A stretch of 64,000 nt of DNA from Chlorella sorokiniana. Its lineage: Eukaryota; Chlorophyta; Trebouxiophyceae; Chlorellales; Chlorellaceae. The DNA is taken from the NCBI GenBank assembly GCA_025917655.1, contig CP084615.1, forward strand, positions 2,232,001 to 2,296,000, read 5' to 3'. Both the position numbers and the translations under genes were made by a program. The stretch's first letter is position 1; each line of letters begins with the position of its first letter. Shown here piece after piece: positions 138 through 64,000 of this stretch. Below the pieces are notes generated by a model that was not told the origin of the DNA, made no database searches, and saw nothing but the letters and a program-made list of their open reading frames with translations.

Positions 138-4896
<4,759 letters not shown>

Positions 4897-11725: not shown

Positions 11726-11738
11726 CTGCAAGGGGCAA

Positions 11739-14255: not shown

Positions 14256-15060
14256 CAAGGGCAGTGATGTGTGCCACATGACCGCCTCCACAAGACTGGT
14301 GATTAGCTGAGCATCATTCTTGCTGCAGGCAGCGGAGGCAGGACAGCGCATAGAAGCGGCGACGTGTGAGGAGTGCATCCAAGTCCTTAGGGGACATTAA
14401 GGCCGACGCAGGTGCAGGAACCGGGAGCTGCTGCCATCTTTGAAAGAACTTTCAAATATACCTACCTTCTTCGGCGCTTGCAGATGCGTGCGGTGGGGCG
14501 GCAGCGGCAGCGGGACGTCCCCTCGGACGGCGGCAGGCCGGTGGCTGCGGCGGGTGGGGCAGGCAGGCAAGGCTGATGCATCACAAGTGGCCCTGCAGCG
14601 TTGCTGCCTACGCCAAGCAACCTTGAGAGGCCGCTCAGGCTGGTTGCAGGCAGCCCAGTGCAGGTGGCGCCAGGCGCCGGCTGCAGCAGGGGCCTTGGAC
14701 TCCTCCAACTTACGGCGCGATGGGCTCCCTGCCCTCTCGACGCCTCGGAGTCTCCATTACTGCCGGTGTTCGCGCGGCTGGGCCTCCCTAGCGCGTTCGG
14801 GCTCCTCGAGCAGCGCCACAGGGTGCGGTGAGGGCAAAATGATCGCGCATCAAAGCGTTGAGCAAAACGGCGGAAGCCGAAAGGGAGGGACCAGGCTCCA
14901 GCCCTCCAAGGAACGCCAGGCACACCTCATGTAGCTTCCCCGCCCTGCGGGCGCTGCCTGCCCCGCCTCCCAGGATCTCGCACTGTTTCGGACTGTGTTC
15001 CATCGAGGCAAAGCGCCGTAAATGGTCATGGTTGGAGCAAACGGGGGTTTAGTATGTGGG

Positions 15061-36677: not shown

Positions 36678-36715
36678 AAACAAAATGCCGGGCTCGAACT
36701 CACCGTCTCAGTGCA
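36678..36715 (-). other. Partial tRNA-like remnant
   Basis: On the minus strand, CACTGAGACGGTGAGTTCGA followed by GCCCGGCATTTTG resembles the T-arm, acceptor end and T-rich tail of the tRNA-Met at 50.6 kb. The sequence beyond it (36,640-36,677) also matches the DNA after that tRNA (GCAGCCAG, CCAAAC). The 5' half is missing. It sits at a duplication boundary. Confidence 0.4.
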
Positions 36716-37930
36716 TGTCACATCGAATAGAGTACATTTGATGCAATGCTGTCAAGCTGCTGCTCACCTGGCGCCGGATTGCTTCCTGCCGCTGCTCCTC
36801 GGCAGCTGCCCGCCGATATATGAGCTGCAGCTCCAGCTCCGCGGCCTTCATCGGGTTCCACTCGTCGTGCTCGGGCGGTAGCAGCTGCCAGCCTTGCTCG
36901 AGCAGCACCTCCTGCGCGGCCCGCTCATAATAATGTGCGAAATCGCGCGCATCCTCTGCTTCTAGCTCCACCTGCAGGCGGCGCTGCCGCTCTGCCTCCC
37001 GCGCAGCCAGTCGCCGGTGCCGCGCTGCAACGCGCGCCGCCAGCTCAGCCTGGCGCTGCTGCTCCCGCTCTGCAGCTCGCTGCCGCTGCGTTGCAGCGGT
37101 CGCCGCCAGCTCAGCCTGGCGCTGCTGCTTCCGCTGCTCATGCTCTGCGGCTCGCTGCCGCAGCGCTGCAGCGGTCGCCGCCAGCTCAGCCTGGCGCTGC
37201 TGCTCACGCTGCTCATGCTCTGCGGCTTGCTGCTGCTGCGCTGCAGCGATCACCGCCAGCTCAGCCTGGTGCTGCAGCTCCCGCTGCTCACGCTCTGCGG
37301 CTTGCTGCTGCCGCTGCGCTGCAGCGGGCGCCGCCAGCTCAGTCTCCCCCTGCTGCTCCCGCCGCTCACGCTCTGCGGCTCCCGCTGCTGCAGCCTTCTT
37401 CGCATCATGGCGCTCCTTGTTGGCCTGCTTCACAGCCTTCCGCCGCTGCGCGGTCGCGGCACGCTGCGCCACGCTCTGTCGATTGCCACCCTCGCGCCCG
37501 CGCGCTTTCCCCTGCGACGCAGGAGGTGCCGCAGAGCTGCCTGGTTGCATGGCCTGCCTTTGCTGATGTGGCGCGAGAGCTGTGTCTCCTCATGGTTTGG
37601 CAGCCCGCCAGACAATGGGTGGCCCACGCACGCCTGCTGGCATGGGTAAGCCCCTTGCTGCGACTCGGCGACAGCCTGCGCCAGCTCGGCCGCGTTCCCA
37701 GCCTTGGATCGGTGGATGAAGGCGCAAGCGTAGCAGGTTTTCAGCTTGGCTGCAGGGAGGGGTGCGGCCAAGCGTGAGGAGGACAAGGGCATCCTGCAGG
37801 CGACGACGGCAGCCCCTGCAAGGTTGCAAGGCAGCGCTCTATCAAGCTGGAAGCTTGTCATCCAAGTCAAGGCCGTGCCCACCATTCCTTGCGCCGTGGC
37901 CAGCCTTGTCAGCCATGGCCCCAGCCGCGG
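36708..37930 (-). pseudogene. Second partial copy of coiled-coil ARID-family paralogue
   Basis: Repeats the 3' half of the gene at 31,974-35,726: a Lys/Ala-rich exon near 37.9 kb, the Cys/His module KTCYACAFIH...PCQQACVGHP near 37.83-37.58 kb, and the coiled coil. The coil is open for 280 codons from 37,550, with AEREQRELQHQAELAV-type repeats, and ends SIRCDMH. One base is missing relative to the first copy where the module joins the coil (near 37,505). Exons 1-3 are absent. At about 37,930 the homology stops abruptly against the truncated Miro copy. It could be expressed only if an upstream start has been acquired. Confidence 0.6.
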
Positions 37931-37936
37931 CTTAGT

Positions 37937-40821: not shown

Positions 40822-40948
40822 CTGTAAAACAGGACTGGACCACTAGCAGCACCAGCAAGACAGACCCAGCGCTGCTGTCAACTGCTAGATCTGCGTGCTG
40901 CACAGGCCTGGACGCGCTTGACGTGCTAAGCCCTCGACCCTGGCCACC

Positions 40949-42893
40949 GACGAGTGCCAGCCGCTGCGAGACAGCGCCATCATGGTGCTGGGGTGAGGCC
41001 TCTGCTGCCGCCGCCACCCACTGCCTACCCAGCCTTCCGCTGCCCTGCGTGCAAGAAGCAAAACATGTCTGCACGCCTTGCCGCAATCATGCTCTGAAGC
41101 ACCATCCCCAACCCGCCCCTGCCCGTCTCGTTTGGTTTGCAGCCGCGCGCTGCAGAAGAGCGAGTGCCTCAATTTGCCGCCGGACCTGTGGGTACAGACG
41201 TTCCGCGAGTTTCTTGTGCCGGTAGCGGCAGGTGAGGGCAAGGCGCGAGCAGCATTGCACCCTTTGACTGTCACAATCGACTGTCATGATTTGAAGCCAG
41301 GCCTGCACCTCCCTTGTTTTCGATGCTGTTGTCGGTAGCAAAGTTGCAATTGCAATCTTGCAATCGCAAGCCACGTTCTGAGCCAGCGTCCCTCCACCGC
41401 CCCGCAGAACTGGCCCGTCTGGCGGCGAAGAAGGCCAAGAGCCACCCCGGTGCCGAGAAGAGCGTGCGGCTGGCTGTAGCCATGCTGACAAACACCACGA
41501 TGCAGGTGGGTGGGTGAGGGGTTCAGGGCGCCGTTGCGCTCATTTATGTTCCGCGCACGCTTCGCTTCGCTTAAGTGCTGCCTGGCCAGCATCGCATGCC
41601 GTCGTGGCGGCAAAAGCAGGGGCGCCTCCCGAGCAGCCCTGGCTGACGTCCCCCCCCCCTGCTTGTTGCCTGTACCGCCTGCAGTACGTGGAGGTGGTGC
41701 AGCACGACCGAGACTTTTACGCGCTGTGGGGGCGGTGCTGCAGGCGCTGCAGGTGGGGCCAGCCGCCCGCCCAGAGTGCAGCCGATGGACAGGCATGCCA
41801 TGCAGCGCGGGATTTGTGCCGCTGCCCTTACGCGGCTGCCCAGCAGCGGCGTCCCACCCCCGCGCTGCGCCTCTGTTGGCCGCTGCCACTGCCCGCTTGG
41901 CTGGCCAGCCCGTCCCGCCTGCCCCCGCTTGCTGCAGGACTGCATGGCTGTGCGGCATGAGGCGGTACAGGAGGCGGTGCCTGAGAACGCCAAGAACATG
42001 CTGCTGGTCATGGCCGCATCGGGCATCCTGACCCCAGACTGGAAGGTGGGCGGCTTGTGGGGTAGAGGGCATCGGCCTGTTTCACACCTGAGCACCCGGA
42101 GTCAGTGGAGCAGCCAGCCGCGGTGGCGGTCGAGATGGGGCTGTGGGATCCATCAGCAATCTGGCTGCTGGCTGTGGCAAGGAAGCCGCACTGCACGGTA
42201 TCCGCTGTTGGCCACGCCTCAGCGCCCTGCCGCCCCAGCCACCGCCTGCCGACTCCTTCACCCACTGCCCTTTGCTCCCCCTCTGCCCCCCTCAGGATGT
42301 GTCGGGCGCAGCCTGTGGGACCTCACCTTCTCCCGGGTGCACTCCATCTCGTCAGGCCTGAACCCAGGCATGCTGCAGGCCACGCTCACGCCAAGCAGCC
42401 CCGCGCAGACTGGCCAAGAAGCCGCGGCACCCCCGCTGTGGCTGGAGCAGCAGCAGCTACGGAAGCAGCGGCTCCTGCTGCAGTTGGGCACGCAGCAGAG
42501 AACGCCAACGGGGTGGCCCCTGATGCTGGCGCGGAGCGGGAGGGCACTGTGGCGGTGGCTGCTGGCGACGCAGCGGCGACGCCCGCCCCCGCCAGCCGCC
42601 TCCTTGATGGGTTGGAAGGTTCTGGCTTTGGCAGCGAGGGTGTGCGGTCGCACCCCATCAGCCCCGAACACTTGGATGATACGCCGGGCACCTCCCAGGC
42701 AGCGGGTGCAGCAGGACCCGCCTCCGCCGTCAACCCTGCAGACGGCGGCGAGCCCAGCAGCTTTCAGGGTCGCACACCAGCAACGGCAATGCAAGCAGGA
42801 GCGCAAGACCTGGCGGCAGTAGCAGCTGATGAAGATGACTACAGCAAGGATGTGCAGGCTGAGCAGTCGTCATCGACTTGCAAGCAGAGCTAG
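40949..42893 (+). pseudogene. ARF-GEF (GBF1/GNOM-like) C-terminal fragment
   Basis: Six exons of a large ARF guanine-nucleotide exchange factor, 5'-truncated: to 40,992 (LATDECQPLRDSAIMVLG), 41,143-41,231 (LQKSECLNLPPDLWVQTFRE), 41,408-41,505 (ELARLAAKKAKSHPGAEKSV), 41,685-41,752, 41,938-42,045 (PENAKNMLLVMAASGILTP) and 42,296-42,893. The last contains LWDLTFSRVHSISSGL and a Ser/Ala/Pro-rich tail ending STCKQS. The NAKNMLLVM and LWDLTFSRV segments correspond to the HDS3 end of GBF1/GNOM proteins, which load ARF with GTP at Golgi and endosomal membranes. The catalytic Sec7 domain is absent. The last exon needs a frame change between LWDLTF and the tail. Confidence 0.6.
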
Positions 42894-43385
42894 GCGCGGG
42901 TGCCTGCCCGCCTCCCTGCGCTGCTGGCGCCCCTGGCATCCCCTGCCTGTCCTCCTGGTTGGGAAATACTGTCAGTTTCATATTTCAAGGAAAGCAGCCC
43001 TTGCAAGCTTGGCAAACGAGCCAAGTGCTGCGGGGGTGGCAGACCAGAGCCGCAGCGCTTGCCCCCAGGTGCTGCACTGGTTCAGGAGGTGTCGCTGTGG
43101 CCCTGCCTGGTCGCCAAGCTTTGGCACTTGCCAGATGCTTGGAAAGTGAGATCTGGATTCATGAGTGCGTTCAGGCACAAATGGCGGAGTAATTCAACCA
43201 GCAGCACGGTGCGACTTTCCAGATTGCTCAAGCGTGGCGGCGGCGGCCAGAGGAAGGAGCGGGTTCCCTGGTTATGCGCTGCTTTGATTTAATATTAACA
43301 TAGGAAGACCTGAACGCTTTCCTCTGCCTTTCACAATTCTAGCGCAGAGGCAACGCAGCCGACAAAGCAAACTCGCCAGGCAGCC

Positions 43386-45036
43386 ATGCCTCGAGCAGCA
43401 AGCATTCACGACCTGCCGGTTTCGCTGCTGGAGGCTGTGTTTGGGCGCCTGAAGCTGCACGAGAGGTGCGTCGCTGTGCCCTCCTGCCCCCTCCTGCCTG
43501 GACTGGGAGGCTGCAAGCCTTGCAGTCGCTGTATGGGCAGACCACACTCCCCTGGTGGATGGAAGTGCTGGCTGGCATGAGCAGGCAGCGGTTGTCAGCA
43601 CAGCCGACCCCCGCCACCACTGCTTCTGCCGGATCCTGCAGGCAGTGCTCCATCCGCCAGGTGTGCTGGCTTTGGAACGAGGTTGTGCATAGCCCTGCAC
43701 TCCTGAATCGGGTGGTTGTTGACCTGGGCTGCGGCGCAATGACCGGGGAGGAGTGCGTGGGCATCATGCGGTCCCTGCGCAACTGGCTGGTCAGTCGGGC
43801 GGGGCCCCATGTTCGTCACCTGGAGCTTGCAATTGGCCTGCCGTTGAAGAATGCTGGGCAGCATTCCTTCACAATCGGCCTGGCGGATGAACATCTGCAT
43901 GCCTGGGACTTGTTGTTTAGAGAAGCGCTCGCAGCCTGCGAGGACGCCGATGAGCTGGCGCTGGAGCTTAACTTCAGCTACTTCTTGAACCGCTACACAC
44001 GCCACTTGCCGCACCTGCGGGCCTTGAGCGCAGCTGCCAACCGCAACTTCGGTGTGATAATAATTGAAGAGCCGCTGGAGCAGCCGCTGGTGCACTTGCA
44101 GTTCCCACAGGTCAGGTGCCTGCACTTTGAAGAGGCTGGCGCGCTGCCCCCTCGCTCACCAGCCTGGTCATCCGCGGCGATCAGTGCGAAATCTATGACC
44201 TTGAGGGAAAGGATGTGTGGAAGGATCTGCAACCTCAGGTGGGGCAGGACCTGAAGCACTTCAGTACTTCAGCGCTCTTGCATGCTCAAGCCCTCCTGCT
44301 GAATTTCATGATTGCAGATTGGCGCGCTGTCGCGCTTGAGGCGGCTCACTCTAGACGGCTGTTTTTATGGCCCGAAAGAATGCCAACCGCTGCAGCGCAT
44401 CAGCAACACACTGACGCAGCTCCGCTGGACGTCCCCATACTTGCCAGACAGCCTCGCTTCCCTGACAGCCCTGCGCAGCCTTACAATTGGGGACCCAGAG
44501 GTTGACCCTATTGATGAGGGCGACACCCAGGTCCTTGAGGCGGTGCTGCCGCAGCTGGTACACCTCACCCAGCTGATCTTCAACCCAACAGAGTGTTTGC
44601 CGGCGACACTCAGCGCCCTACAGCAGCTGAGCAGCTTGTGCATTGTGTACGTCGAGGAGGCGGATCCCTTGCCTGCTGGCGGCTGGCTGCGCTCTGTGCG
44701 CCGCCTGGCAGCAAACAGCGAGCTGCTGGCGGCCAGCCTGCCAAACTTGGGGTGGGCAGATGGGCTGGAAGACCTTGGCGTGTTTGTTTTTGAGGACGAC
44801 GACGACATGGTCAGCAACCTGCGCAGCATCGTGGACTGGGCAGCCCAGCAGCAGCACCTGCAGCGCCTCTTGATCGACCACCGCAGCGGGGAGGACCCTG
44901 CCGCTGCGGTACCGCTACCCCGCAGCCGGGTTTTCAACATGGCTCTGGGTTCATGTACAACATGCTGTTCCCCTCGGATGTCTCGGATGATGAGGATCGA
45001 TTCGCGGCATCTGACGTTTCAGATGATGAAGAGTGA
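43386..45036 (+). CDS. F-box/leucine-rich-repeat-like protein
   Basis: The best-preserved of three copies. Proposed exons are 43,386-43,465 (F-box-like, SIHDLPVSLLEAVFGRLKL), 43,510-44,238 and 44,318-45,036; the phase fits if the first intron ends at GGGAG|G. Exon 2 has VCWLWNEVVHSPALLNRVVV and HLPHLRALSAAANRN. Exon 3 has leucine-rich repeats (LSRLRRLTLDGCFY, LASLTALRSLTIGD, LSALQQLSSLCIV) and an acidic tail, FPSDVSDDEDRFAASDVSDD. The F-box would bind SKP1, and the repeats would choose a ubiquitination target, by analogy with FBXL proteins. A C run near 44,148 (CCCCC) appears one base short for LTSLVIRGDQ, and the acidic tail is in a different frame from the repeats, so the last part is uncertain. 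Confidence 0.65.
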
Positions 45037-45299
45037 TGTGATGCACCACGACAGCATGCCGAAGTGTTGTACTCTGCTCCTGCGTTGTAACGACAGTTGC
45101 GGAGGCGCCTGTCCATCATCAGAAGGGTGGCGAGCAAAGCTCAGCTCTTCTTCCTACACAGTGTGTCTACAGTTTTCCACCCACCTAAGTCCCGCCTGCA
45201 GCTTGGTTGTGAGAGGAAGCCAGACAGAGATGAAAGTGTGTTTGTGTGTGCTCGAGGAGGGCAGGGGACGGGGTTCCACCAGGAGCAGGGCTTTGCACC

Positions 45300-47340
45300 C
45301 ATAATGGCAATGCAGACGCTTGCACTACGTTGGCCACCCCATGTTGCTGCATTGCCCACCAGGCCGGGTAGGCTTGGGTGCAGCAGCAACAAGCAAGACT
45401 CGGGGCCAGGCTCGACTGCGCTGCTGCCGCCCAGCCTGCGTGCACTCCACAGTGCTATTGCCGCCCCCATGGGTGCGCGGCAGGGCATCAGCCATTGACT
45501 GCCGAGGGTGCAGTCTGACCAGGCGGCACCGGTGTTGGCGTGGCCGGCGGCCCAGGCCCAGCTGCAGGGCTTGGCATGCGCAACAGTGGGGTTGCTTCGC
45601 GGCGGGCAACCACCATGCCCTGGGTTGGGAGATTATAAAGCTGGGGATTACATTGAATTCAGGTGCTCCACATCGTTTCGTAATGTAGCAGGCAAGAGTA
45701 AAAGCCAGCAGAGCAGCTGGCAGAGCATGGGCTGCCAGCAGGGCAAAGGCATCCCGGTTGTCATGCGCCGCCTCCTGCACGAGTCGTGACAGACGAAGCT
45801 GCCCAGCAGCATTTTTTACATCCGCCTTCTCCAGCTCCTCGTCCTGGGCAGTCGACCGGAACATGCACATGCATGCCCGGCAGGTGTCGCGCTTGGCTGC
45901 GGGCGGGGGGCGCATTGGCGGCAGTCAGAGCTTGCTCGGCAGAGGCTCTGTTAGGCCGTCATGAGGCCAACAACCCAAAAAGGCAGTGGTCACCAGCAGC
46001 GCATCCGACACAGCTTACCATTCTTTGCGCCGTGCCCAGCTGCACTGGCCTCCGCCCATCTCCGCAGCTGCCTCGCCGCCCGCTCTTCCTGCGTGCAGGT
46101 CAAGGGGCGAAGCAGACGTTGAGGCAGAACCAGTGCATGGCAGGGCCGCCTTAGATAGCAGGTGCGCAGGCAGCGATCAAGTAGTCCAACAAACACGGCA
46201 TGCTGGGACGCACCGCCTTTGGAGACGGCTTCCAGCAAGCGCCCGCAGTCCTGCTCCCAGGCTGCCTTGCCTGCAAAAGCACAATGCAGTCAAGGAATAA
46301 AGCAAAACAAACAAATGCTCGCCTACAGCCAAGTCAAGTTGGCCACCACAGCCACAACGGGTCGCACACAAGCCACTCCGCAGATGTGGGGCCGTGCAGG
46401 CGTGGGCGATCTCCCGCGAGCTCACCCAGGTCAGGAGCCGCGTCGAATTGCCGGCCTCCGTGTGGCCATCGTGCCCATGGATGCGGTGCCGCCTACCGTG
46501 CCTGCGGCGGGATGGCGGCAGGGCGGGAGGCAAGAGCTGTCAGTGTGAGCATGACCGTTGTGAGCAAGGCTGATCCAAGCAGGAATGCGCCCTTGTACCC
46601 AGTGCAAAAAGTTACCAACATCTGGGCGCCCAGCCCCTCCCAGGAGAGCCCCACCCCGCTGCGGAGTAGGAGTGCAGGCGCGCCATCTTGCCGCCCCGTG
46701 GTGTGCGCGTCAAACACGCAACGCCCCAGCTCGCTCACCACGTCGGCAGGTGGGTCGCCGAGCGGCTGCAGCAGCCCCGCCCCGCCCCCGCCTTTGCCGT
46801 CAACTCTCGAAGCGTGTCATGCGCTTGCGCTTGCCCATGGCACCCCCATGGGGCTTGGGCTCCAGCACATACAGGCCGCTGACAATGCTGTCAAGATGGA
46901 CTTGCACCTGGTGGTAATACGGGCTGTTCTTGCCCAGGATATACTTGCTGGCGAAGAGCGTGCGGCTGGTGAGCTCGATTGAGGCGCCGCCGCCAGCGCC
47001 GGAAGAGGTGGCGGAAAAGCCCAGACAGCCCAGGCGTTGCGCGCCGGCGTGCTGCTTGGCCCCCAGCAGGCGCAAGCACAGAGCCTGGGCTGTCTGGGCT
47101 TGTCTGCCGCCTCTTCCGGCGCTGGCGGCGGCGCCTCAATCGAGCTCACCGGCCGCACGCTCTTCGCCAGCAAGTATATCCTGGGCAAGAACAGCCAGTA
47201 TTACCACCAGGTGCAAGTTCATCTTGACAGCATAGTCAGCGGCCTGTACGTGTTAGAGCCCAAGCCCCAGGAGGCCGCCGAGGGCAAGAGCATGATCCGC
47301 TGTAAGGTGTTGATGGCAGAGACGGGGGACTGGTGTTAGG
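45300..47340 (-). pseudogene. Degenerate ARID-family exons, block 2 proximal set
   Basis: Minus strand from about 47,075: an exon 3 piece (LFASKYILGKNSPYYHQVQV, LYVLEPKP), an exon 4 piece near 46,490 (TVGGTASMG), an exon 5 piece near 46,260 (AWEQDCGRLLEAV), then near 45,900 DTCRACMCMFRSTAQDEE, the first half of the Cys/His module. That half is followed by a different tail (DNRDAFALLAAHALPAALLA), not by the second Cys-His cluster. The plus-strand stretch 47,075-47,340 is an inverted exon 3 piece that ends ETGDWC. No complete frame. Confidence 0.65.
46852..47268. repeat. Long quasi-palindrome, block 2
   Basis: Arms 46,852-47,035 and 47,083-47,268 are inverted copies of ARID-family exon 3. The two strands encode nearly the same peptide over most of each arm (PRIYLLAKSVR, ARSSPASISWART). 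The spacer is about 47 bp. Confidence 0.85.
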
Positions 47341-49240
47341 CAGCTGGCAAATATTGGGACATGATCGGTGCATGACTAAATGGCGGCCAGCAGTTGCGGC
47401 AGGCAGCTCTGAAGCACTTCGACAAAATCAAGCATGCTGCTACGTACCGCCTTTGAAGGCGACCTCCAGCAAGCCCTCTCGGTGCTGTGCCCAGGCCTGC
47501 CGGGTATGCCATGTGTACAACGGGGTTGTGAGTTTGGTGGTGGCGACAGGTTTGTGGATGGAAGAGGAGGGAGAGCCAGGCAGCGGGAAGCGGCGCTGGC
47601 AAAGGAGGGCAGGTGGCCCCTGACCTTCACAATACCATGGAAATGACAGCTGATTCGCCGCTGCGGACAGCTGCACAACACCGGCACACCCATGGAAGCA
47701 GCCCGATGCCGGCCTGCCGGCCTCCCTGTAGCCGCCCTTAGTCACGGCGTCGGGGCCGCCCACCTTGGTGCCGCCAGCTGCAGCCACGGCACAGGACACA
47801 AGGATGGCTCAGAAAGCAAACATTGAGCAGAAATCAGCTGAGGCTGGGACTGTGCCTACAGCGCTGTGTAACAAGCACAGTCGACAAGGTTGCAGCCTGT
47901 CCAGAGCGCCACCACAACCCCCGACTGTGCCTGGCCACTCGCCTGAAGAGGGCTCGGGGTGCAGGCAGTCCATCAGCCGCCCTGGCAGCAACACCCGCTG
48001 GTCTGGCCAGCCGGGAGCATGCGCCCCAGCTCGGTGCTGGAAGGCAGCCGTGGCAATGGAGGGAGCTCACGCTGCCCGCGTGACTCTGCCATGATGCCTG
48101 CAAAGGACCCCGGCTGCACCCACGGCGCAGCGCCGCTTCGCGGCCATGTGGCGCACAGCGCTGACCTGACCCAAGAGATGGATGCGTCGCAAGCAACGCT
48201 GTGGCAGCCCAGGCTCAGCAGCATACCACCGCCATGGCCGACAGGGGGACCCGGGGAGGACCGGGGGAACTCCGGTCGGCCTCGCCGGTGGCGTGCTGCT
48301 GAGCCTGGGCCGCCACAGCGTTGCTTGCGACGCAGCAATCTTGGGCAAGGGCAGTGATGTGTGCCTCATGGCCGCCTCCACAAGACTAGTGACCAGCTGA
48401 GCATCATCCTTGCTGCGGGCAGCTCAGGACAGCGCACAGAAGCGACGACGTGTGAGGAGTGCATCCAAGTCCTTAGCGGACGTCAAGGCCGATGCAGGCT
48501 CAGAGCCGGAGCTGCTGCCAACTCAAGAGAAAGTTTTTATCAGACCCACCCTCTTCTGCGCTTGCAGATGCGCAAGCTTGGGCGGCGGCGGCGGCAGTGG
48601 CAGCGGCGTCGGGACGCCCTCCCGGCCGGCGGCAGGCCGGCGCCTGCGGCGGGTGGGGCAAGCAGGCACGGCTGATGCAGACACGTGGCCCTGCAGCGTT
48701 GCTGCCCACGCCAAACAACCTTGAGAGGCCGCTGAGGCTGGTTGCAGGCAGCCCAGTGCAGGTGGCGCCAGGCCCGCCCGCAGCAGGGGCCTTGGACCCC
48801 CTCACCGTACTCTGCGATGGGATCCTTGCCCTCTCGACGCCTCGGAGTCTCCATTGCTGCCGATGGTCGTGCGGCTGGGCCTCTCTAGCGCGATCGGGCT
48901 CCTCGAGCAGCGCGAGAGGTGCAGTGAGGGCGGAGCGACGGCGCAAATGACCGGCAAGAGTGCCGGTGGGACGCCGAAAGGGAGGGGATGGGCAGGAACC
49001 CTTCAGGCGCAGCTGCGCGTGGCCTCCCGCCCTGCGGGAGCCCCCTGCCGGGCAGTCGCCCTTCTCATGTTGTTTCCGGCTGTGTGAGTTGAAGGAAGTG
49101 CGGTGCAGACGGGCGGTAGCGGGGCCACAGGGCGGGGCTGGGGTTGTGGGTGCCGCGCAGCGCGGGCAGCATGGGCGTGGGGCATGGGGGTTGGGGCGGG
49201 GGCGGCGGCCAGCGACGGCAGCCTGGGATTCAAGGATCTG
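47341..49240 (-). pseudogene. Degenerate ARID-family exons, block 2 distal set
   Basis: On the minus strand, exon 1 near 48,854 (METPRRREGKDPIAEY followed by a GTGAGG donor), exon 2 near 48,540-48,660, and an exon 5-like piece near 47,480 (AWAQHREGLLEVAF). Exon 3 and the Cys/His and ARID exons are not in this set. The stretch 48,120-48,430 holds a second palindrome. DNA upstream of exon 1 (48,860-49,240) resembles the upstream region of the other ARID-family copies. Confidence 0.6.
48169..48345. repeat. Second type of quasi-palindrome, block 2
   Basis: Arms 48,169-48,246 and 48,271-48,345 are inverted copies. The counterpart of 14,079-14,255, with a few base changes. Confidence 0.75.
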
Positions 49241-52076: not shown

Positions 52077-55000
52077 ATGGCGTCTCCGAGGCGCCGTAAG
52101 GGCAAGGAGCCCATCGCGGAGTACGGTGAGCTGGCCTGGGAGCCCTCGGAGCCCTAGGGCCCTGCCCTGCTGCCCAGGCCTGCTGCAGCCTGCCGCCGCC
52201 TGCACTGGCCTGCACTGGGCTGCCTGCAACCAGCCTGCCAAGGTTGTTTTGCTGATGCAGCAATGCTACAGGGCAACATGTGATTCTTAGTCTGCGCCTG
52301 CCTGCCCCATCCGCCGCAGGCGACCCGCCGGCGCTGGCGTTCCTGCCGCTGCCGCCGCTGCCGCCGCTCCTGCCGCCGCACGAGCTGGGCGGGCGCGCGA
52401 GCAAGCGCCAGAAGGTGGGTGTCAAGCCGCATGCGTACTGGTTCATGCAGGGCTGGTTGTGGTGTATAGATCGGGCCCGTACAACAGCCGACAGCGCTGC
52501 ATTCTCCCACCCTTGCAATAGCTCAAGCCTGGGGAGGTGAAGCTTGTGCGCCTGACAGCTGCCACTGTGGCACCTAACAGTGGCAACAGGAACGATCGCT
52601 GGCTGATGGAGTCGCACAAATGGGCGACGGTGAGCACGGTGGAGGAGGCGGACGCAGCGCTGCACCGCCAGTTATATGCCAGCGGCAGGCAGCCGCAGCT
52701 GAGACTGACCGACCATGTGCAGCTGGGCGACGCCGCGCTGCAGCCGTACAGCGGGTTCCCTATGGTCTGCGGCATCCGGGCATATGAGGCGGCCGGTGTC
52801 CTGAAGGACAACAACGGCCGATTGTACATGCACTCCGCCGACCTGGCAGCGGCCGAAGCGGTGCCCATCTACGGGCGCATTGCTGAGCAGGTGTTCATCG
52901 GCAGCGCGCTCGATGTGGAGCGGCAGCAACCGGGCTACGAGGTGGTCGATGTGCAAATAATGATGAACGAGCCCAGCGTGAGCGGGCTGCACCGCGACAG
53001 CGGCGGCGGCGCCGGCGGCGGCGACGACGGCGCCAGCGTGTGCAAGGGGCCGGCCAGCATGCGAGCCATCGCGCGTGCCAGCGCACTGCTGGACCCCCAG
53101 CAGGCGCAGGCACAGGGCCTGGGCGGCCTGGGCTTCAGCGCCTCCTCCATCGGCGCTGGCGGCGGCGCCACTATAGACCTCACCGGGCGAACACTGTTCG
53201 CAACGAAGTTTGCCCTGGGCAAGGACAGTGACTATTTCCACCAGGTGCAGGTGAAGCGCCGCGGCATTGCCAGCGGCTTGTACGCGCTGGAGCCCAAGCC
53301 GCAGGGGCCGGTTCAGCGCAAGGGCAAGCGCACGGGGCACTTTGAGCAGCGGATGGCAGAGGCGCGGGCGGGTGCGTGGCAGCTGCAGCCGCTCGGCGAC
53401 CCGCCTGCCGACGTGGTGCGCGACCTGGAGAGCGGCGTGATTGAGGCGCGCACCACGGGTGGCGAGATGGAGCGCCTGCACTCCTACTCCGCAGCGGGTG
53501 AGCGTTGTGGCGGCTGGCTGGGGCCCAGGAGCTGGCTGGGCGCTGGCTGGCTGGCCTGCGCTCGGCTGGACTTGCTGTGCAGGGACGGGGGCCCACGCCA
53601 GCCTGGAACAGCCTTTCTCATAGTTCGCACACCGAGCACCCCTGCCCGCCCCCTGCTGCCTCTGCCGCCGCAGGTAAGGTGGGCGGCGCCGCATCCATGG
53701 CCAAGGAGGGCCTCACAGAGACCGGCGAGTCCAAGCGGGCTTCCAACATGGGTGAGGTGGCGCTGAGTTCGCGCTGCACAGCCCCACATATGCAGCCATG
53801 CTCTTGTGCGATCCCAGCCAGCTGTTGTGGGCAGTTTGGCTAGGGGCGGGTGACCACTGCGCTTGTGTTTCTTCACCACCTGACTGCGTTATGCTTTTCA
53901 GGCAAGGCGGCGTGGGAGCAGAAACCCGAGCGCATGCTGGAGATCACCAGAGAAGCCAGTGAGTGGCCATGCCGCAGCTCGTGACTCGCTGGTGTTGATG
54001 TCTTTTGCACGGAACCAACTAAGCGGGGCAGCGCTTGCTTTTGGCCACGGCTGCAGGCAAGAAAGCTGTGAAGAAGAAGGCGGGGGCCCAGGCAGACCCG
54101 GCTGCGCACGGCGCAAAGAATGGTGGGCTGTGCTGCACTGCTGGTGACCAGTGCCTGGCCTCATGACTGACGGCTCAGCATCGCCTCTGCCAAGCAAGCT
54201 CTGATTGCAGCCGCTGCGCCCTCCCGCCACCTTCAGCCAAGCGCAACACCTGCCGGGCATGCATCTTCATGTTCCGCTCGACTGCCCAGGACGAGGAGGA
54301 GCTGGAGGAGCTGGTGCGGGAGTCGCAAATGGGCAAGTTCCCCTGCCAGGGCTGGTGCGACGGGCACCCGTTCCAGCACGACCTCCCGGGCGGCAGGAAG
54401 AGCCGCCAAGGCCGCTGGCTGGAAGAGGGCAAGGTATGCGACGCCGTGGCCGAGGACTTCATCCTCAACCAGCCCTTGGCCAAGAAGAAGGACAACAGCG
54501 GCCGCCAGAAGCAGGTGATCGCCGCCGGCGACGGGTAGAGCGGCGCTGCCAGCGGCGCAACTCATGACATGCTGCCGGCTGCCGCCCTTGCTCCTCACAT
54601 ATGAACCCTCCCTCTCCCTCCTTGCCCTGTCCAGCCGGAGGTGCCCGCCGACGCTGCTCCCAGCCTGCCCAGAAACGCCCCGTTCGGTGTGTCAGAGTGG
54701 AAGGCGCAGTACATGGCCCACTTTGACCGCAAGCGCGTGGCGAACCTCGTGCCGGTCAAGAACGACGGCTTGGCCGTGAAGCTGAGCATGGCACAGCTGC
54801 ACGAGAAGGTGCTGGCTGCCGGCGGCTTGAATGAGGTGGGCGCAGTGCTGTTGACTGCGCTTGGCCGCTTGCTGTTCTCTCATGTACGTGCAACTGCTGA
54901 GAGCCTGCCGTGGATGAGGGCCTCTGGCTCTCTTCCCTGCCGCAGCTGGACGCTCAGCGCTCGGTGGAGCAGGTTGGCGCTGGCTGGGAGGGGGTCGCGA

Positions 55001-55092
55001 CGGTGATGGGCCTGCCGGGCCAGGGCACCGCCATCTGCGCCGCCTACGACAAGTATGTGCGCCCCCTGCTGGTCGACAGTGACAGCGAGTGA
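52077..55092 (+). CDS. ARID-like protein with novel Cys/His module, nine exons
   Basis: Exons 52,077-52,125, 52,320-52,414, 52,522-53,497, 53,674-53,751, 53,902-53,958, 54,057-54,122, 54,237-54,514, 54,635-54,835 and 54,946-55,092; every intron is GT-AG and all phases agree, giving 648 residues. Residues 1-48 are basic/proline-rich (MASPRRRKGKEPIAEY). Residues 49-373 form an unrecognised region (STVEEADAALHRQL, AAGVLKDNNGRLYMHSADLA). Residues 374-440 are Lys/Ala-rich, like linker histone tails. Residues 446-484 carry C-x2-C-x27-C-x3-C-x2-H (TCRACIFMFRS, FPCQGWCDGHP). Residues 545-645 resemble ARID: LHEKVLAAGGLNE then WEGVATVMGLP and AAYDKYVRPLL, the Leu-x-GG, Trp and Tyr-x-x-Tyr-Leu landmarks. 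ARID domains bind DNA, so a nuclear chromatin role is likely but inferred. At least six degenerate relatives lie in this window. Confidence 0.8.
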
Positions 55093-56432
55093 GCCGTGAG
55101 GGCGCTCCAAGGAGGCCTTGTGGCTAGGGCGCCGCCAGCTGCAGCTGCAGGCACCTTGCGGGCAGCCGTGGCGTCCAAGGCTGCTGCCCACTTATGCAAC
55201 CGTGCCGCTCCTGACATGTCTCATAAGCAGGCACCACATTTCTTACCACCTCATATCAGCCCTCATCATTCTCATTTTACTCATTCAGTAACTTGTTTCC
55301 CACTGTAAGTTCGTTCACTGCTACTAAGCTTTTGGCGAGGGAGTCCAAGGCCCCAGTTGCGGGCGGGCCTGGCGCCACCTGCACTGGGCTGCCTGCAACC
55401 GGCCTCAGCGGCCTCTCAAGGTTGTTTGGCGTAGGCAGCAACGCTGCAGGGCCGCGTGTCATGCATCAGCCTTGCCTGCCTGCCCCACCCGCCGCAGGCG
55501 CCTGCATGCCGCCGGCCGAGGAGGGCGTCCCGCCGCCGCTGCCGCGTCGCCGGAAGCGACGTGCCATAAGTGGCTCCGAATCTTTGCGGACGTCATGGCA
55601 GAGGCACGCGCGGCGCAGGAGCCACCGCTCCCGTCGCGGCTGCCTTCCAGCACCGAGCTGGGGCGCATGCTCCCGGCTGGCCAGACCAGCGGGTGTTGCT
55701 GCCAGGGCGGCTGATGGACTGCCTGCACCCCGAGCCCTCTTCAGGCGAGTGGCCAGGCACAGTCGGGGGGTTGTGGTGGCGCTTTGGACAGGCTGCAACC
55801 TTGTCGACTGTGCTTGTTACACAGCGCGCTGTAGGCACAGTCCCAGCCTCAGCTGATTTCTGCTCAATGTTTGCTTTCTGAGCCATCCTTGTGTCCTGTG
55901 CCGTGGCTGCAGCTGGCGGCACCAAGGTGGGGGCCCCGTTGCCGTGACTAAGGGCGGCTACAGGGAGGCCGGCAGGCCGGCATCGGGCTGCTTCCATGGG
56001 TGTGCCGGTGTTGTGCAGCTGTCCGCAGCGGCGAATCAGCTGTCATTTCCATGGTATTGTGAAGGTCAGGGGCCACCTGCCCTCCTTTGCCAGCGCCGCT
56101 TCCCGCTGCCTGGCTCTCCCTCCTCTTCCATCCACAAACCTGTCGCCACCACCAAACTCACAACCCCGTTGTAAACATGGCGTACCCGGCAGGCCTGGGC
56201 ACAGCACCGAGAGGGCTTGCTGGAGTTCGTCTTCAAAGGCGGTGCGTAGCAGCCTTCTTCTGTTTGTTGAGACTGCTTCAGAGGTGCCTGTCGCCGATGC
56301 TGCCTCAGCCGGCCATTCAATCATGCACCGATCCTGTCCCAACGCATGCCTGCTCCCCCGCACCAGCCCGCGCCTTTGCCATCATCTCTCGAAGCGCGTC
56401 ATGCACTTGCGCTTGCGCGCAACACCCCTCTG

Positions 56433-56850
56433 GGGCTTGGGCTCCAGCGCATACAGGCTGCCTGCTGACGATGCCGCCATGCTGCACCTGAACCTGGTGG
56501 TAGCAGGTGCTGTTCTTTCCCATGATCTCTTTGGTGGCGGACAGCATGCGGCCCGTCAAGTCGATGGAGACGCCGCCGCGAGCGCCGGAAATGGATGTGG
56601 AAAAGCCCAGGTAGCCTAGGCGTTGCGGCTAGCGTGCTGCTTGCCCGCAGCAGGCGCACGCGCAGTGCCTCGGCTGCCTGGGCTTCTCCACATCCTTTTC
56701 CGGCGCTGGAGGCGGCATCATCATCGATCTCACTGGCCGCATGCTGTACGCCACCAAGGACATCAAGGGAAAGGGCAGCCCCTGCTACCACCAGGAGCAA
56801 GTCCAGCACGACGGCGTCGCCAGCGGCCTGTATGCGCTGTAGCCCATGCC
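56433..56850. repeat. Long quasi-palindrome, block 3
   Basis: Arms 56,433-56,620 and 56,666-56,850, inverted copies of ARID-family exon 3 with a 45-bp spacer. This is the block 3 counterpart of 12,771-13,195 and 46,852-47,268, with arms more diverged from each other. Confidence 0.75.
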
Positions 56851-57663
56851 CCAGGACACAGCTGTGCTCAATTGCAAGCGCATGGCGCTTCGAGCAGATG
56901 ATGGCAAGGCGCGCGGGCGCGCCCTAGGGCAGCTGCAGCCGCTCGGCGACCCGCCTGCCGCCGTGGTGAGCGAGGTGGGGTGCAACGCGTATGAGGCGCG
57001 CACCACGGGGGCAAGATGGCGAGCCTGCACTCCTACTCTGCAGCGGGTGAGGTGCTCGGGCGCAGGGGGCGCGCGCTTAGCTTTCGGCTGGACTTCTTGC
57101 GCTTGGACAGGGAGTCCTGCTTGGATCAGCCTTGCTCATGGCACTCAGTCTCCAACCGACTGGTCCTGCCCGCCGCCCCGCTGCCTCCGCTGCTGCAGGC
57201 AAGGTGGGCAGCGCTGCATTCAAGGGCGAGGAAGTGGTTGTTGTGGCTCAACTTGGCTTGACTGTGGGCCACCATTCTGTATGTTGCTTCATTTCGTAAC
57301 TTTTACTTGCTTTTGTTTGCAGGCAAGCGAGCTGAGAGCAGGGCTGCGGGTGTATGCTGGAGGCCGCCTCAAAGGCGGTGCGTACCAGCCTGCTGCTGTT
57401 TGTTGAGTGCTGCCTGTCGCCGCCGCTGCCTCAGGCGGCCCAGCCATGCCCGGGTTCGGCCTCAACGCCTGCCTCGCCCCTCAACCTGCACGCAGGCAAA
57501 GCGGGCGGCAAGGCAGCTGTTGAGATGGGGCGGAGGCCATTGCAGCCCCAGCTGTACACGGCGCAAAGGATGGTGAGCTGTGTTGGATGCACTGCTGTTG
57601 GTCTGTACCCCTTGGCCACTTGTCCAACCTAAGAGCGGCTTTGCCAAGCTGCTGCCTGCACCA

Positions 57664-58238
57664 GTGGTGGAGGCAGAGAATCCCATGCCGCCCAGGCCCT
57701 GGGCCTGCGCCTGCTGGGGTGCAAGGAGCACGCTGGCGCGCGAGATGGCGCGCAGGCTGGCCTGCCCCTTGCACACGCTGGCGCCGTCGTCGCCGCCGCT
57801 GGCGCCGACATCGCCGCCGCTGTCCTGGTGGAAGCCGCCCACGCTCGGCTCGTTGACGATAATCTGCACGTGCTGGACACGGTATCCAGGCCGCTGCTCC
57901 TCCACGGCGAGCGCACTACCAATGAACATTTTCCTGGCGTAGGGCCCGTAGATGGGCACCGCCGCAGCAGTGCCTGACTGTTGGCCCTACGCCAAGAAAG
58001 TCTTTCTTGGCAGTGCGCTCGCCGCGGAGGAGCAGCGGCCTGGGTACGTCGTCCTGCATGTGCAGCTCATCGTGAACGAGCCGAGCGTGGGCGGGCTGCA
58101 CCAGGACAGCGGCGATGACAACGGCGCAGGCGTGGGCAAGGGGCCTGCCCGCCTGCGCGCCATCTCGCGCGCAAGCGTGCTACATGCCCCCAGCAGGCGC
58201 AGGCCCAGGTCTGGGCTGCCTAGGCTCTTCCGCCTCCA
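57664..58238. repeat. Longest quasi-palindrome, block 3 only
   Basis: Arms 57,664-57,946 and 57,983-58,238 (about 260-280 bp each, 36-bp spacer) are inverted exon 3 copies. GGCGTAGGGCC at the inner end of the left arm faces GGCCCTACGCC at the inner end of the right arm. Confidence 0.8.
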
Positions 58239-59825
58239 CATCGGCGCTGGTGGCGGCGTTTGAATGGAGCTGCCCGGGCGCACACTGTTTGCCAGCAAGC
58301 ACATCCTTGGCAAGGCCAGCCCCTACTACCACCAGGTGCATGTGCAGCACGAAGACATCGCCAGCAGCCGGAGCCCCAGGAGGGCGCCTGAGTCCTGCGT
58401 GTCACAGCCCTTCCCACAGCGCACATTCTCACACCGACCGCTCTTGCCCGCCGCCCCGCTGCCTCCGCTGCCACAGGCAAGGTGGGCAGCGTTGCATCCG
58501 TGGGTAAGGAAGTGGCTGTTGTGGCTCAATTTGACTTGACTGTGGGCAACGATTGTTTGTTCCCTGGCTGCATTACGCTTTTGTTTGCACAGGCAAGGCA
58601 GCCTGGGAGCAGGACCGCGGGTGCATGCTGGAGGCCGTCTCCAAAGGCGGTGCGTCCCAGCATGCCGCTGTTTGTTGGACTCCTTGACTCCTTGATCTCT
58701 GCCTGCCGCAACTGCTGTCTAAGGCGGCCCAGCCATGCACCGTTTCCACCTCAACGCCTGCCTCGCCCCTCAACGTGCACGCAGGCCAAGCAGGCGGCAA
58801 GGCAGCTGCGGAGATGGGGGCGGAGGCCATGGCAGACCCAACTGGCCCCGGCGCAAAGAATGGTGAGTTGTGTTGGTTGCGCTGCTGTGATCAGTGCTCG
58901 GCCTCATGACGGCTTATTGGCGGCTCTGCCGAGCTAGAACTGATGGATGCCGCTGCGCCCTCCCACCCGCAGCCAAGAGCGACACCTGCCGGGCACACAT
59001 GTGCATGTTCCGCTCGACTGCCCAGGTCGAGGAGGAGCTGGAGGAGGCGGATGTGCAAAAATCGCTGCTGAGGCAGCTTCGTCTGCCACTGCTGGTGCAG
59101 GAGACGGCGCATGACAACCGGGATGCCTTTGCCCTGCTAGCAGCCCATGCTCTGCCAGCTGCTCTGCTGGCTTTGAATCTTGCCTGCCACATTACAAAGG
59201 AATACCTGAATTCAATGTAATCCCCAGCTTTATAATCTCCCAACCCAGGGCATGGCGGTTGCCCGCCGCGAAGCAACCCCACTGTTGCGCGTGCCAAGCC
59301 CTGCAGCCGGGCCTGGGGCGCCGGCCACGCCGACACCGGTGCCGCCTGGTCAGACTGCAGCCTCGGCAGTCAATGGATGATGCCCCGCCGCGCACTTATG
59401 GGGGCGGCAATAGCACTGTGCAGCGCACGCAGGCCGGGCAGCAGCAACAGCGCAGCCCGTTTGGCCCTGATCTTGCTTGTTGCTGGTGCCCCTAAGCCAA
59501 GCCGGTCAGGTGGGCAATGCAGCAGCATGGGGTGGCCAGCGCAGTGCAAGCGGCTGCATTGCCATTTGGGTGCAAAGCCCTGCTCCTGGTGGAACCCCCG
59601 CCCCCTGCCCTCCTCGACACACACAAACACACTCCTCATCTCTGTCTGCCTTCCTTTCACATCCAACCTGCAGGCGGGACTTAGGTGGGTGGAAATCTGT
59701 GGGCACACTGTGTACAAAGAAGAGCCGAGCTTTGCTTGCCACCCTGCTGATGATGGACAGGCGCCTCCGCAGCTGTCGTTACAAGCAGAGTACAGCATTT
59801 CAGCGTGCTGTCGTAGTGCATTACA

Positions 59826-61480
59826 TCACTCTTCATCATCTGAAACGTCAGATGCCGCGAATCGATCCTCGTCATCCGAGACATCCGAGGGGAACAAGAT
59901 GTTGTACATGAACCCAGAGCCATGCTGAAAGCCGGGCTGGGGGGCAGCGGGACCGCAGCGGCAGGGTCCTCCCCGCTGCGGTGGTCAATCAAGAGGCGCT
60001 GCAGGTGCTGCTGCTGGGCTGCCCAGTCCACGATGCTGCGCAGGTTGCTGACCATGTCGTCGTCGTCCTCAAAAACAAACACGCCAAGGTCTTTCAGCCC
60101 ATCTGCCCACCCCAAGTTGGGCAGGCTGGCCGCCAGCAGCTCGCTGTTTGCTGCCAGGCGGCGCACAGAGCGCAGCCAGCCGCCAGCGGGCAGGGGATCC
60201 GCGTCTTCAACATACACAATGCACAAGCTGCTCAGCTGCTGCAGGGCGCTGAGGGTCGCCGGCAGACGCTCCGTTGTCTTCAAGATCAGCTGGGTGAGGT
60301 GCGCCAGATGCGGCAACGCCTCCTCCAGGTGGTAAAAATCAGGATCCTGCATTGGGTCCACATTCGGATCCCCAATTGTAAGGCTGCGCAGGGCTGTCAG
60401 GAAAGTGAGGCTGCCTGGCAAGTATGGGGACGTCCATCGGAGCTGCGTCAGTGTGTTGCTGATGCGCTGCAGCGGTTGGCATTCATTCGAGTCGTAAAAC
60501 AGCCGTCAAGAGTGAGTCGCCTCAAGCGCGACAGCGCGCCAATCTGCAGTGTCGCTATTCGGCAGGAGGGCTCAGATTTCCCGATAATGCTGATGTGCTT
60601 GAAGTGTTCTGTGCTGGCCCAGCCCCCACCTGAGATTGCAAGGGCTTTTCTTCAGCTGAAAGGTCCAGGTAATCAATTTCATACTCATCGCCGCGGATGA
60701 CCAGGCTGGTGAGCGAGGGGGCAGCGCGCCAGCCTCTTCAAAGTGCAGGCACCTGACCTGTGGGAACTGCAAGTGCACCAGCGGCTGCTCCAGCGGCTCT
60801 TCAATTATTATCACACCGAAGTTGCGGTTGGCAGCTGCGCTCAAGGCCCGCAGGTGCGGCAAGTGGCGTGTGTAGCGGTTCAAGAAGTAGCTGAAGTTAA
60901 GCTCCAGCGCCAGCTCATCGGCGTCCTCGCAGGCTGCGAGCGCTTCTCTAAACAACAAGTCCCAGGCATGCAGATGCTCATCCGCCAGGCCGATTGTGAA
61001 GTTATGCTGCCCAGCATTCTTCAACGGCAGGCCAATTGCAAGCTCCAGGTGACGAACATGGGGCCCTGCCCGACTGACCAGCCAGTTGCGCAGGGACCGC
61101 ATGATGCCCACGCACTCCTCCCGGTCATTGCGCCGCAGCCCAGGTCAACAACCACCCGATTCAGGAGTGCAGGGCTATGCACAACCTCGTTCCAAAGCCA
61201 GCACACACGGCGGATGGAGCACTGCCTGCAGGATCCGGCAGAAGCAGTGGTGGCGGGGGTCGGCTGTGCTGACAACCGCTGCCTGCTCATGCCAGCTAGC
61301 ACTTCTATCCACCAGGAGAGTGTGGTCTGCCTATACAGCGATTGTCAGGCTTGCTGCCTCCCCAGCCGCGCCCAGGGGCGGGAGGAGCACAGCAACGCAC
61401 CTCTCGTGCAGCTTCAGGCGCCCAAACACAGCCTCCAGCAGCGAAACTGGCAGGTCGTGAATGCTTGCTGCTGGAGGCAT
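59826..61480 (-). pseudogene. F-box/LRR-like gene, block 3 copy
   Basis: Starts at 61,480 (MPPAASIHDLPVSLLEAVFG) and ends at the TGA at 59,828-59,826 after an acidic tail (FPSDVSDDEDRFAASDVSDD). If the first intron ends at the TATAG near 61,343, exon 2 continues QTTLSWWIEVLAGMSRQR in frame. Relative to block 2 one G is missing in a G run near 61,122, which breaks the frame after LGCGAMTG. The leucine-rich exon is open and intact over about 200 codons (LTFLTALRSLTIGD, LSALQQLSSLCIV). With one homopolymer difference as the main lesion, it could be a functional gene with a sequencing error; otherwise a young pseudogene. Confidence 0.6.
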
Positions 61481-61978
61481 GGCTGCCTGGCGAGTTTATT
61501 TTGTCGGCTGCGTTGCCTCTGCGGTAGATTTCTGAAAGGCAGGGGAAAGCGTCCAGGTCTTCCTATGCTACATTTGAGCAGAGCAGCGCATAAGCAGGGA
61601 ACCCCATGCTGCCGCTCTTTCCTCTGGCCGCCAGCAGCCAGCTGATTCAGCTATTTGCAAAGCAGCACCGTGCTGCTGGTTGAATTACTCCACCAGTTGA
61701 TGAACGCGCTCATGAAGCAGCCTGCACTTTCCATGCATCTGCCGAAGCTCAAAGCTCGGCAACCAGGCAGGGCCGCAGCGACATCTCCTGAACCAGTGCA
61801 GCACCTGGGGGCAAGCGCTGCGTCTCTGGCCTGCCACCCCCGCAGCACCTGGCATCCTGGCAAGCTTGCAAGGGCTGGTTTCCTCATCCTGGTTCGAACT
61901 TACAGCAAATTCAAACAGGAGGACAGGAAGGGACACCAGGGGCGCCAGCAGCGCAGGGAGGCGGGCAGGCACCCCCGC

Positions 61979-64000
61979 CTAGCTCTGCTTGCAAGTCGAT
62001 GATGACTGCTCAGCCTGCACATCCTTGCTGTAGTCATCTTCATCAGCTGCTACTGCCGCCAGGTCTTGCGCTGCTGCTTCCGTCGCCGCTGCTGATGCGC
62101 CACCCTGAAAGCTGCTGGGCTCGCCGCCGTCTGCAGGGTTGACGGCGGAGGCGGGTCCTGCTGCACCCGCTGCCTGGGAGGTGCCCGGCGTATCATCCAA
62201 GTGTTCGGGGCTGATGGGGTGCGACCGCACACCCTCGCTGCCAGAGCCAGAACCTTCCGGCCCATCAAGCAGGCGGCTGGCGGGGGCGGGCGTTCCTGCT
62301 GCGTCACCAGCAGGCACGGGCGCCTGTGCCCCGCTGATCTCCCGCTCAGCGCCAGCATCAGGGGCCGCCCCATTGGCGTCCTCTGCTGCCTGCCCAGCGG
62401 CAGCAGGAACCGCTGCTTCCGTAGCTGCTGCTGCTCCAGCCACGGCGGGGGTGCCGCCACGGCCACTGCGCGGCCTGTCGCGGCTTCTTGGCCAGGCTGC
62501 GCGGGGCTGCTCGGCGTGAGCGTGGCCTGCAGCATGCCTGGGTTCAGGCCTGACGAGATGGAGTGCACCCGGGAGAAGGTGAGATCCCACAGGCTGCGCC
62601 CGACACATCCTGAGAGGGGGCAGAGGGGGAGCAAAGGGCGGTGGGTGAAGGAGTCGGCAGGCGGTGGCTGGGGCGGCAGGGCGCCGAGGCGTGGCCAACA
62701 GCAGATACCGTGCAGTGCGGCTTCCTTGCAGCCAGCAGCCAGATTGCTGATAGATCCCACAGGCCCAACTTTGCCGCCACTACGGCTGGCTGCTCCACTG
62801 CCAATCCGGGCGCTCAGGTGTGTAACAGAACGATGCCCTCTGCCCCACAGGCTGCCCACCTTCCAGTCTGGGGTCAGGATGCCCGATGAGGCCATGACCA
62901 GCAGCATGTTCTTGGCGTTCTCAGGCACCGCCTCCTGCACCGCCTCGTGCCGCACAGCCATGCAGTCCTGCAGGAAATGGGAGCAGGCGGGATAGGCTGT
63001 CTGGCCAAACGGGCAGCGGCAGCGGCCAACACAGGCGCAGCGCGGGGTTGGGGCGCCGCTGCTGCGCAGCCGCGTAAGGGCGGCTGCACAAATCCCGCTG
63101 GGATGGCATGGCTGGCCAGCGGCTGCACTCCGGGCGGGCGGCGGCCCCCACCTGCAGCGCCTGCAGCACCGCCCCCACAGCGCGTAAAAGTCTCGGTCGT
63201 GCTGCACCACCTCCACGTACTGCAGGCGGTACAGGCGACAAGCGGGGGGCGGCACGTCAGCCAGGCTGCCGGCAGGGGCCCCTGCTTGCTGCCGCCGGGA
63301 CGGCACGTGATGCTGGCAAGGGGCCAGGCAGCACTCAAGGGCAGCGTGCGCGGAACATGCATGAGCGCAACGGCGCCCTGAAACCCTCATCCACCCACCT
63401 GCATCGTGGTTTTCGTCAGCATGGCTACAGCCAGCCGCACGCTCTTTTCGGCACCGGGGTGGCTCTTGGCCTTCTTCGCCGCCAGACGGGCCAGTTCTGC
63501 GGGGCGGTGGAGGGACGCTGGCTCAGAACGTGGCTTGCGATTGCAAGATTGCAATTGCAACTTTGCTACCGACAACAGCATCGAAAACAAGGGAGGCGCA
63601 GGCCTGGCTTCAAATCATGACAGTCGATTGTGACAGTCAAAGGGTGCAATGCTGCTCGCGCCTTGCCCTCACCTGCCGCCACCGGCACCAGAAACTCGCG
63701 GAACGTTTGCACCCACAGCTCCGGCGGCAAATTGAGGCACTCGCTCTTCTGCAGCGCGCGACTGCAAATCGGACAGGCAGGGACAGGGTTGGATGGGTAC
63801 TCCATAGCTTGATTGCAGCAGACATACAACCACGATTGCTTCTTGCGAGCAGGGCAGCGGAAGGCTGGGGAGGGCAGCGGGTGGCGGCGGCGGCGGCGGC
63901 GGCCGCCCTCACCCCAGCACCATGATGGCGCTGTCTCGCAGCGGCTGGCACTCGTTTGTGGCCAGGGTCTGTGCCAGCACGCCCATGCTGGTCAGCCACA
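61979..64000 (-). CDS. ARF-GEF (GBF1/GNOM-like), C-terminal part, runs off the right edge
   Basis: The exon at the edge (64,000-63,913) encodes LTSMGVLAQTLATNECQPLR. Next come 63,761-63,673 (LQKSECLNLPPELWVQTFRE), 63,496-63,399 (ELARLAAKKAKSHPGAEKSV), an exon near 63.2 kb (YVEVVQHDRDFYALW), one near 62.95-62.85 kb (PENAKNMLLVMASSGILTP) and the last exon to 61,979, with LWDLTFSRVHSISSGL and a long Ala/Pro/Ser tail. The HDS-type helical end of large ARF-GEFs is recognisable; the Sec7 domain should lie beyond the window. These proteins activate ARF1-class GTPases for COPI or endosomal traffic. The final exon changes frame at a C run near 62,455. This copy continues past the point where the block 2 copy is truncated, so it is probably the parental gene. 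Confidence 0.62.

Follow-up and report, generated by a model that had tools for sequence, protein, structure and literature searches.

A candidate metal-binding Cys/His module with differing C-terminal partners in a duplication-rich locus of Chlorella sorokiniana

The THAP domain of THAP1 and of the P-element and Galileo transposases is a long zinc module of about 90 residues built on two knuckles (C..C / C..H); it is tied to DNA binding and coordinates zinc through a C2CH set of residues, as given in an excerpt of PMC3688188. Residues of the C2CH type are present in a module encoded by a single exon of the Chlorella sorokiniana gene described here, which has the pattern C5-x2-C8-x27-C36-x3-C40-x2-H43, i.e. 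C-x2-C-x27-C-x3-C-x2-H. Unlike THAP, presumably Pfam family PF05485, this module holds an extra conserved Cys in the 31-residue gap between its knuckles, and it lacks a THAP profile or PDB-sequence match. PARP-type zinc fingers are spaced C-x2-C-x28/30-H-x2-C; their knuckle-to-knuckle distance is similar, but the module has the last two ligands in reverse order (C..C...C...C..H) and found no PARP-type match in Pfam or the PDB. Pairs such as C-x2-C and C-x3-C-x2-H are typical metal knuckles.

The window analysed, meaning the whole 64-kb stretch, is part of contig 5 of a 38.8-Mb genome in 15 contigs, where the chlorophyll-binding-protein family has 41 matches. The module-bearing gene, g54 (52077-55092, forward strand), is a putative nine-exon spliced model of 648 aa with a single open frame to a TGA, and all eight of its introns are GT-AG. 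Exons 1-5 lie at 52077-52125, 52320-52414, 52522-53497, 53674-53751 and 53902-53958, and exons 6-9 at 54057-54122, 54237-54514, 54635-54835 and 54946-55092. GC at the third codon position is 0.84-0.93 in the four of nine exons measured (3, 7, 8 and 9). The module exon (54237-54514, forward strand) comprises 92 whole codons between a 5' intron of phase 1 and a 3' intron of phase 0; it begins CAG|CCAAGCGC, its translation opens KRNTCRACIFMFRSTAQDEEELEELVRESQMGKFPCQGWCDGHPFQHDL, and a lysine-rich exon neighbours it. No publication on g54 was found by title and abstract start in literature on ARID, zinc fingers, genomes or shuffling in Chlorella and Trebouxiophyceae, nor under 'novel zinc finger' in green algae. 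Retaining the intron behind the module (54515-54540) would end g54 a few codons later with VIAAGDG*, and a copy on contig 1 treated in this way would likewise end early, with VIADGDG*; a protein form ending with the module is thus possible through intron retention in both.

Either side of the module, the protein is only partly classifiable. Exon 3 (52522-53497, forward strand) encodes an unclassified N-terminal domain, which has numerous partial copies within the window: 17 matches in its own genome including itself, 15 in the window and two at contig 5:274.7 kb. It matched no Pfam family at E up to 1 and nothing convincing among PDB sequences; 39 pattern matches in IMG/VR and 88 in prokaryote genomes yielded no confirmed relative, and its structure prediction was poor (pLDDT 32). 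Exons 8-9 (54635-55092, forward strand) resemble the ARID/BRIGHT domain PF01388, matching its profile positions 28-87 of 89. The 115-aa part scores 17.5 bits (E 0.0056), under the curated Pfam cut-off of 24.1, and within the whole protein the score is 13.2 bits (E 0.12). The ARID-like domain placed after the module by the preliminary description is present as a match below that cut-off. Five other ARID matches occur in the genome at E up to 1, four of them above the cut-off, and g54 is absent from these matches when searched exon by exon. The ARID-like end found no convincing match among PDB sequences; its weak genome matches are at C11:595560 (E 0.0006 over 27 aa) and C9:1909408 (E 0.03), E values that apply to searches against those stretches.

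Seven loci were hit at E up to 1 when the whole genome was searched at the protein level with the module: g54, contig 1:1077100, minus-strand copies at 33.5 and 37.7 kb of the window, and short pieces at 10.5, 45.8 and 58.9 kb. Two weak matches, C10:517116 (E 0.05) and C2:1391774 (E 0.16), were dropped because their frames, when read, showed none of this Cys/His spacing. The second module copy (33318-33553) belongs to a paralogous gene, p33 (31974-35726, limits approximate, minus strand), in which exons 1-7 are ordered as in g54 and are followed by a coiled coil instead of the ARID-like end. This module has the acceptor CAG|CCAAG, as in g54, and runs in frame into the coil (ORF 33093-33761), the joint frame stopping at 33093, about 75 codons on. 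A 1-nt length difference shifts the frame of p33 exon 3, GT is missing at the place equivalent to the g54 exon-2 donor, and the coil repeats contain stops or frame changes; against Pfam, the p33 reading frame found only DUF4638 (E 0.56), within the coil part. The third copy, p37 (37514-37749, minus strand), has no N-terminal exons found beside it, and a 1-nt length difference between module and coil puts the coil (ORF 36708-37589) in another frame. The statement that both paralogues run straight into a coiled coil is thus correct at 33.5 kb and wrong, by one nucleotide, at 37.7 kb. Since the p33, p37 and contig-1 copies are broken or incomplete, g54 alone looks intact, and proteins that carry the coil may have ceased to be produced.

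All four full-length copies keep Cys5, Cys8, Cys36, Cys40 and His43 with identical spacing. This bears out the earlier observation of exact spacing in g54 and the 33.5- and 37.7-kb copies, with divergent residues between the cysteines (FMFRSTAQDEEE against FIHRSKAGNAAE), and extends it to a fourth, previously unseen homologue, the contig-1 copy, which is 61% identical to the g54 module over 83 residues. The two window paralogues do not provide two independent samples, however: their modules share 96% DNA identity, silent sites included (dS 0.07 over 79 codons), and are counted once. Both lie within 1 kb of sequence shared at 81% identity, and gene conversion between the modules is suggested. 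Three independent lineages remain, namely g54, contig 1 and p33/p37. In the alignments used, the contig-1 row of A1 extends 7 residues beyond the splice donor, and A3 is A2 minus two rows, with three other rows shortened.

The remaining three pieces are, as aligned to g54, truncated or frame-disrupted module remnants. On the minus strand, 10534-10623 carries the first half of the module and then a TAG, with similarity to g54 stopping at 54326; 45826-45896, also on the minus strand, carries a 3-nt deletion, with similarity stopping at 54310. At 58973-59111 (forward strand) the second Cys of the first half is replaced by His, and the second half is present in the DNA and disrupted by insertions. 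The preliminary description correctly saw the first half of the module in these blocks and proposed that it joins a third, unrelated tail. At 58.9 kb the start of this tail is the module itself out of frame, because DNA similarity continues, with insertions, as far as g54 position 54366, taking in the codons of Cys36 and Cys40 and reaching into that of His43, with other sequence beyond 59111. The 58.9-kb stretch shares 86-92% identity with those at 10.5 and 45.8 kb, and a third partner in these copies, as first stated, is not supported.

The reading we tentatively prefer, at somewhat under even confidence, is that of a lineage-specific metal-binding module in a putative nuclear DNA-binding protein, whose 3' partners (ARID-like end or coil) were exchanged by recombination. 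The exon would encode a compact metal-binding module of about 80 residues. One zinc would most likely sit on Cys5, Cys8 and two of Cys36, Cys40 and His43, which would tie the C-x3-C-x2-HP loop to the short first knuckle; with five candidate ligands, more than one coordination scheme is conceivable. The helical tail behind the knuckles could serve as a contact surface, and the g54 protein may hold DNA or chromatin through the zinc module and the ARID-like domain together. For the module alone, zinc binding is the probable function, within a single putative nuclear protein that ends in an ARID-like part.

Constraint on the module was assessed by residue invariance and by dN/dS, the latter over aligned codons only, with stop codons left out, a bootstrap over codons of 500 rounds, and p33 exon 3 taken up to its frame break only (34431-35291). 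Of the seven Cys/His residues of g54, five do not vary across the three lineages, compared with 25 of the 78 columns as a whole (hypergeometric P 0.03); the other two, His47 and Cys67, each persist in two of the three. The P value falls to 0.0025 if the five residues are chosen after the fact, which is not a fair test: the positions were selected after the alignment had been seen, and five-residue conservation was, as a post hoc choice, rejected as decisive evidence. Little is added by the contig-1 copy, because 25 of the 31 positions common to g54 and p33 are kept there anyway. Module dN/dS is 0.44 (0.22-0.74) for g54-p33, 0.64 (0.37-1.06) for g54-p37, 0.60 (0.27-1.09) for contig 1-p33 and 0.58 (0.28-1.06) for contig 1-p37, so that these four cross-lineage comparisons span 0.44-0.64 and only the g54-p33 interval excludes 1. 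Within the other pairing, g54-contig 1, the ratio is 1.13 (0.61-2.30). Together, invariance and dN/dS provide moderate indications that the Cys/His core is constrained.

These same values bear on the alternative that survives best, namely that the spacing is shared by descent only, that function was lost or metal never bound, and that every copy, g54 perhaps among them, is a decaying relic. We consider this possible, if doubtful. The frame breaks in p33 and p37 agree with it, as do the missing N-terminal exons of the contig-1 copy, the g54-contig 1 ratio, the inclusion of 1 in three of the four cross-lineage intervals, the truncation or disruption of all three block copies, and the dN/dS of close to 2.5 that the 10.5- and 45.8-kb pieces show against g54 across 24-30 codons. 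Against it, g54 is open across nine exons with GT-AG borders, the Cys/His residues are better kept than other sites, and the g54-p33 ratio lies below 1 both in the module and in exon 3 (0.54, 0.38-0.73). The other copies have the look of genes in decay or cut short; for g54 we retain the reading as a candidate metal-binding module.

A second, unlikely alternative holds that the module is no new fold, instead being a very diverged large C2-CH-type finger (THAP-, PARP- or BED-like) that would use Cys5, Cys8, Cys40 and His43 as C-x2-C-x31-C-x2-H. In its two-knuckle layout and its C-x2-H-P end the module is similar to THAP as the excerpt of PMC3688188 presents it. This comparison draws on the general spacing rules of these families. 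Profile searches speak against it: none of the four copies matched any Pfam-A family, THAP included, at E up to 10, in a search where HMMER's filters discard the bulk of matches beyond about 0.1. The prokaryote models of NCBIfam gave no match at the same threshold either. Four PDB chain sequences were listed for the module profile (best E 0.42), none of them a THAP or PARP finger; 16 pattern matches in IMG/VR and 48 in prokaryote genomes yielded no confirmed relative. Across the PDB sequence searches with the module, exon 3 and the ARID-like end, the sole row below E 0.01, 8pjx (0.0017), was set aside as three repeats of about 6 bits each. Structural comparison says little, as the AlphaFold model built from a four-row alignment is poor (pLDDT 52, pTM 0.36) and Foldseek returned nothing better than E 4.5 with it. 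The model places helices at residues 6-15, 19-28, 56-62 and 68-76, and residues 30-50, which include the second Cys/His cluster, fall below pLDDT 50. The proposal that the module lies outside named zinc families accordingly held against Pfam, NCBIfam and the viral, prokaryote and PDB collections, and the module is a real Cys/His core, unclassified in these collections. It is very unlikely that the cysteines instead form disulphides or a purely structural, metal-free cluster in a non-nuclear protein, as their even conserved number (four) would allow, given that the two pairs are of the metal-knuckle kind and that the lysine-rich neighbouring exon and the ARID-like neighbour fit a nuclear, reducing location.

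The second part of the preferred reading, an exchange of 3' partners, draws on the divergence of g54 from p33 and on the contig-1 copy. For g54-p33, dS is 0.38 (0.29-0.49) in exon 3 against 1.53 (0.92-3.12) in the module, and these parts are of different ages because the intervals do not overlap. Counted over aligned columns, between borders drawn by eye, nucleotide identity in exons 1-6 is 0.83, 0.77, 0.81, 0.90, 0.82 and 0.75; in introns 3 and 4 it is 0.74 and 0.71, and in intron 5, intron 6 and the module 0.66, 0.67 and 0.66. The fall is gradual, with no single sharp step. Intron 1 (52126-52319 against 35491-35676), at 91% identity, stands above exon 3 at 81%.

The contig-1 copy, whose N-terminal exons were not found, matches g54 from 53534 to 54622 at 74% in one gapped match that covers exons 4-7 and most of the next intron, and the similarity ends about 13 nt short of the ARID exon. 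A further 133 nt on, the same copy matches the end of the p33 coil (84% over 109 nt); at the nearest acceptor, this coil and the module are out of phase. From these matches, one module lineage stands beside coil DNA and elsewhere beside the ARID-like end, the change falling within the intron or at its end. At contig 1:513 kb, a truncated copy of the ARID end with an internal deletion, about 80% identical over 243 nt, starts inside the post-module intron, and no module was found beside it.

Partner replacement is thus supported at the DNA level, by the dS difference and by the contig-1 juxtaposition. The module, in an older sequence lineage, is joined to the coiled coil in the paralogue 20 kb away, and the coil and ARID 3' partners would have been exchanged by recombination in or near the post-module intron of this duplication-rich locus; the juxtaposition is observed, and the event itself is what we infer. 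The coil as the original partner is slightly favoured, because it is found with both module lineages. Of the exon shuffling first proposed within the locus, the change of partner stands at the DNA level; the classical form does not, since a classical unit has symmetric phases and the module exon has phases 1 and 0.

If the module binds zinc and occurs in other algae, a small, unclassified domain would be added to the green lineage, along with a case, perhaps dateable, of one domain switching its C-terminal partner through an intron. The weight of this is modest, with a single gene that looks intact while the other copies are cut short or broken in frame: a module in a small, largely decaying gene family with reshuffled DNA is a modest lead and no clear discovery. 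The broadest reading, in which an undescribed zinc-plus-helix DNA or chromatin domain, restricted to one group of green algae, was repeatedly given new C-terminal partners (coil, ARID) by recombination in the next intron within a palindrome-rich nursery of chimeric nuclear proteins, we regard as quite unlikely.

The surroundings are rich in repeats. Five imperfect palindromes of 526-573 nt (11332-11857, 12710-13247, 46785-47328, 56366-56918 and 57667-58239) overlap exon-3 copies in both orientations, have arms with perfectly complementary runs of 15-45 nt, and reach folding energies of -0.76 to -0.93 kcal/mol per nt, compared with -0.40 to -0.54 for eight random 540-nt windows; a 36-nt stretch in the one at 57667-58239 matches g54 in antisense. 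They are a possible source of hairpin RNA, and by title no publication on the locus was found in literature on Chlorella inverted repeats and siRNA. Two shorter palindromes of 236 nt (14050-14285 and 48140-48375) have no g54 match of at least 12 nt. An inverted block duplication (40936-46355 / 58512-63969) is 88% identical over 5.5 kb, and a direct one (2064-5006 / 37935-40931) is 92% identical over 3 kb. Finally, a long minus-strand array of repeats (LPLHLAAQNGHTAVVQQLL), which we take to be ankyrin-like, occupies 15640-29340, with stop-to-stop frames of up to 1042 aa and the array broken into several frames.
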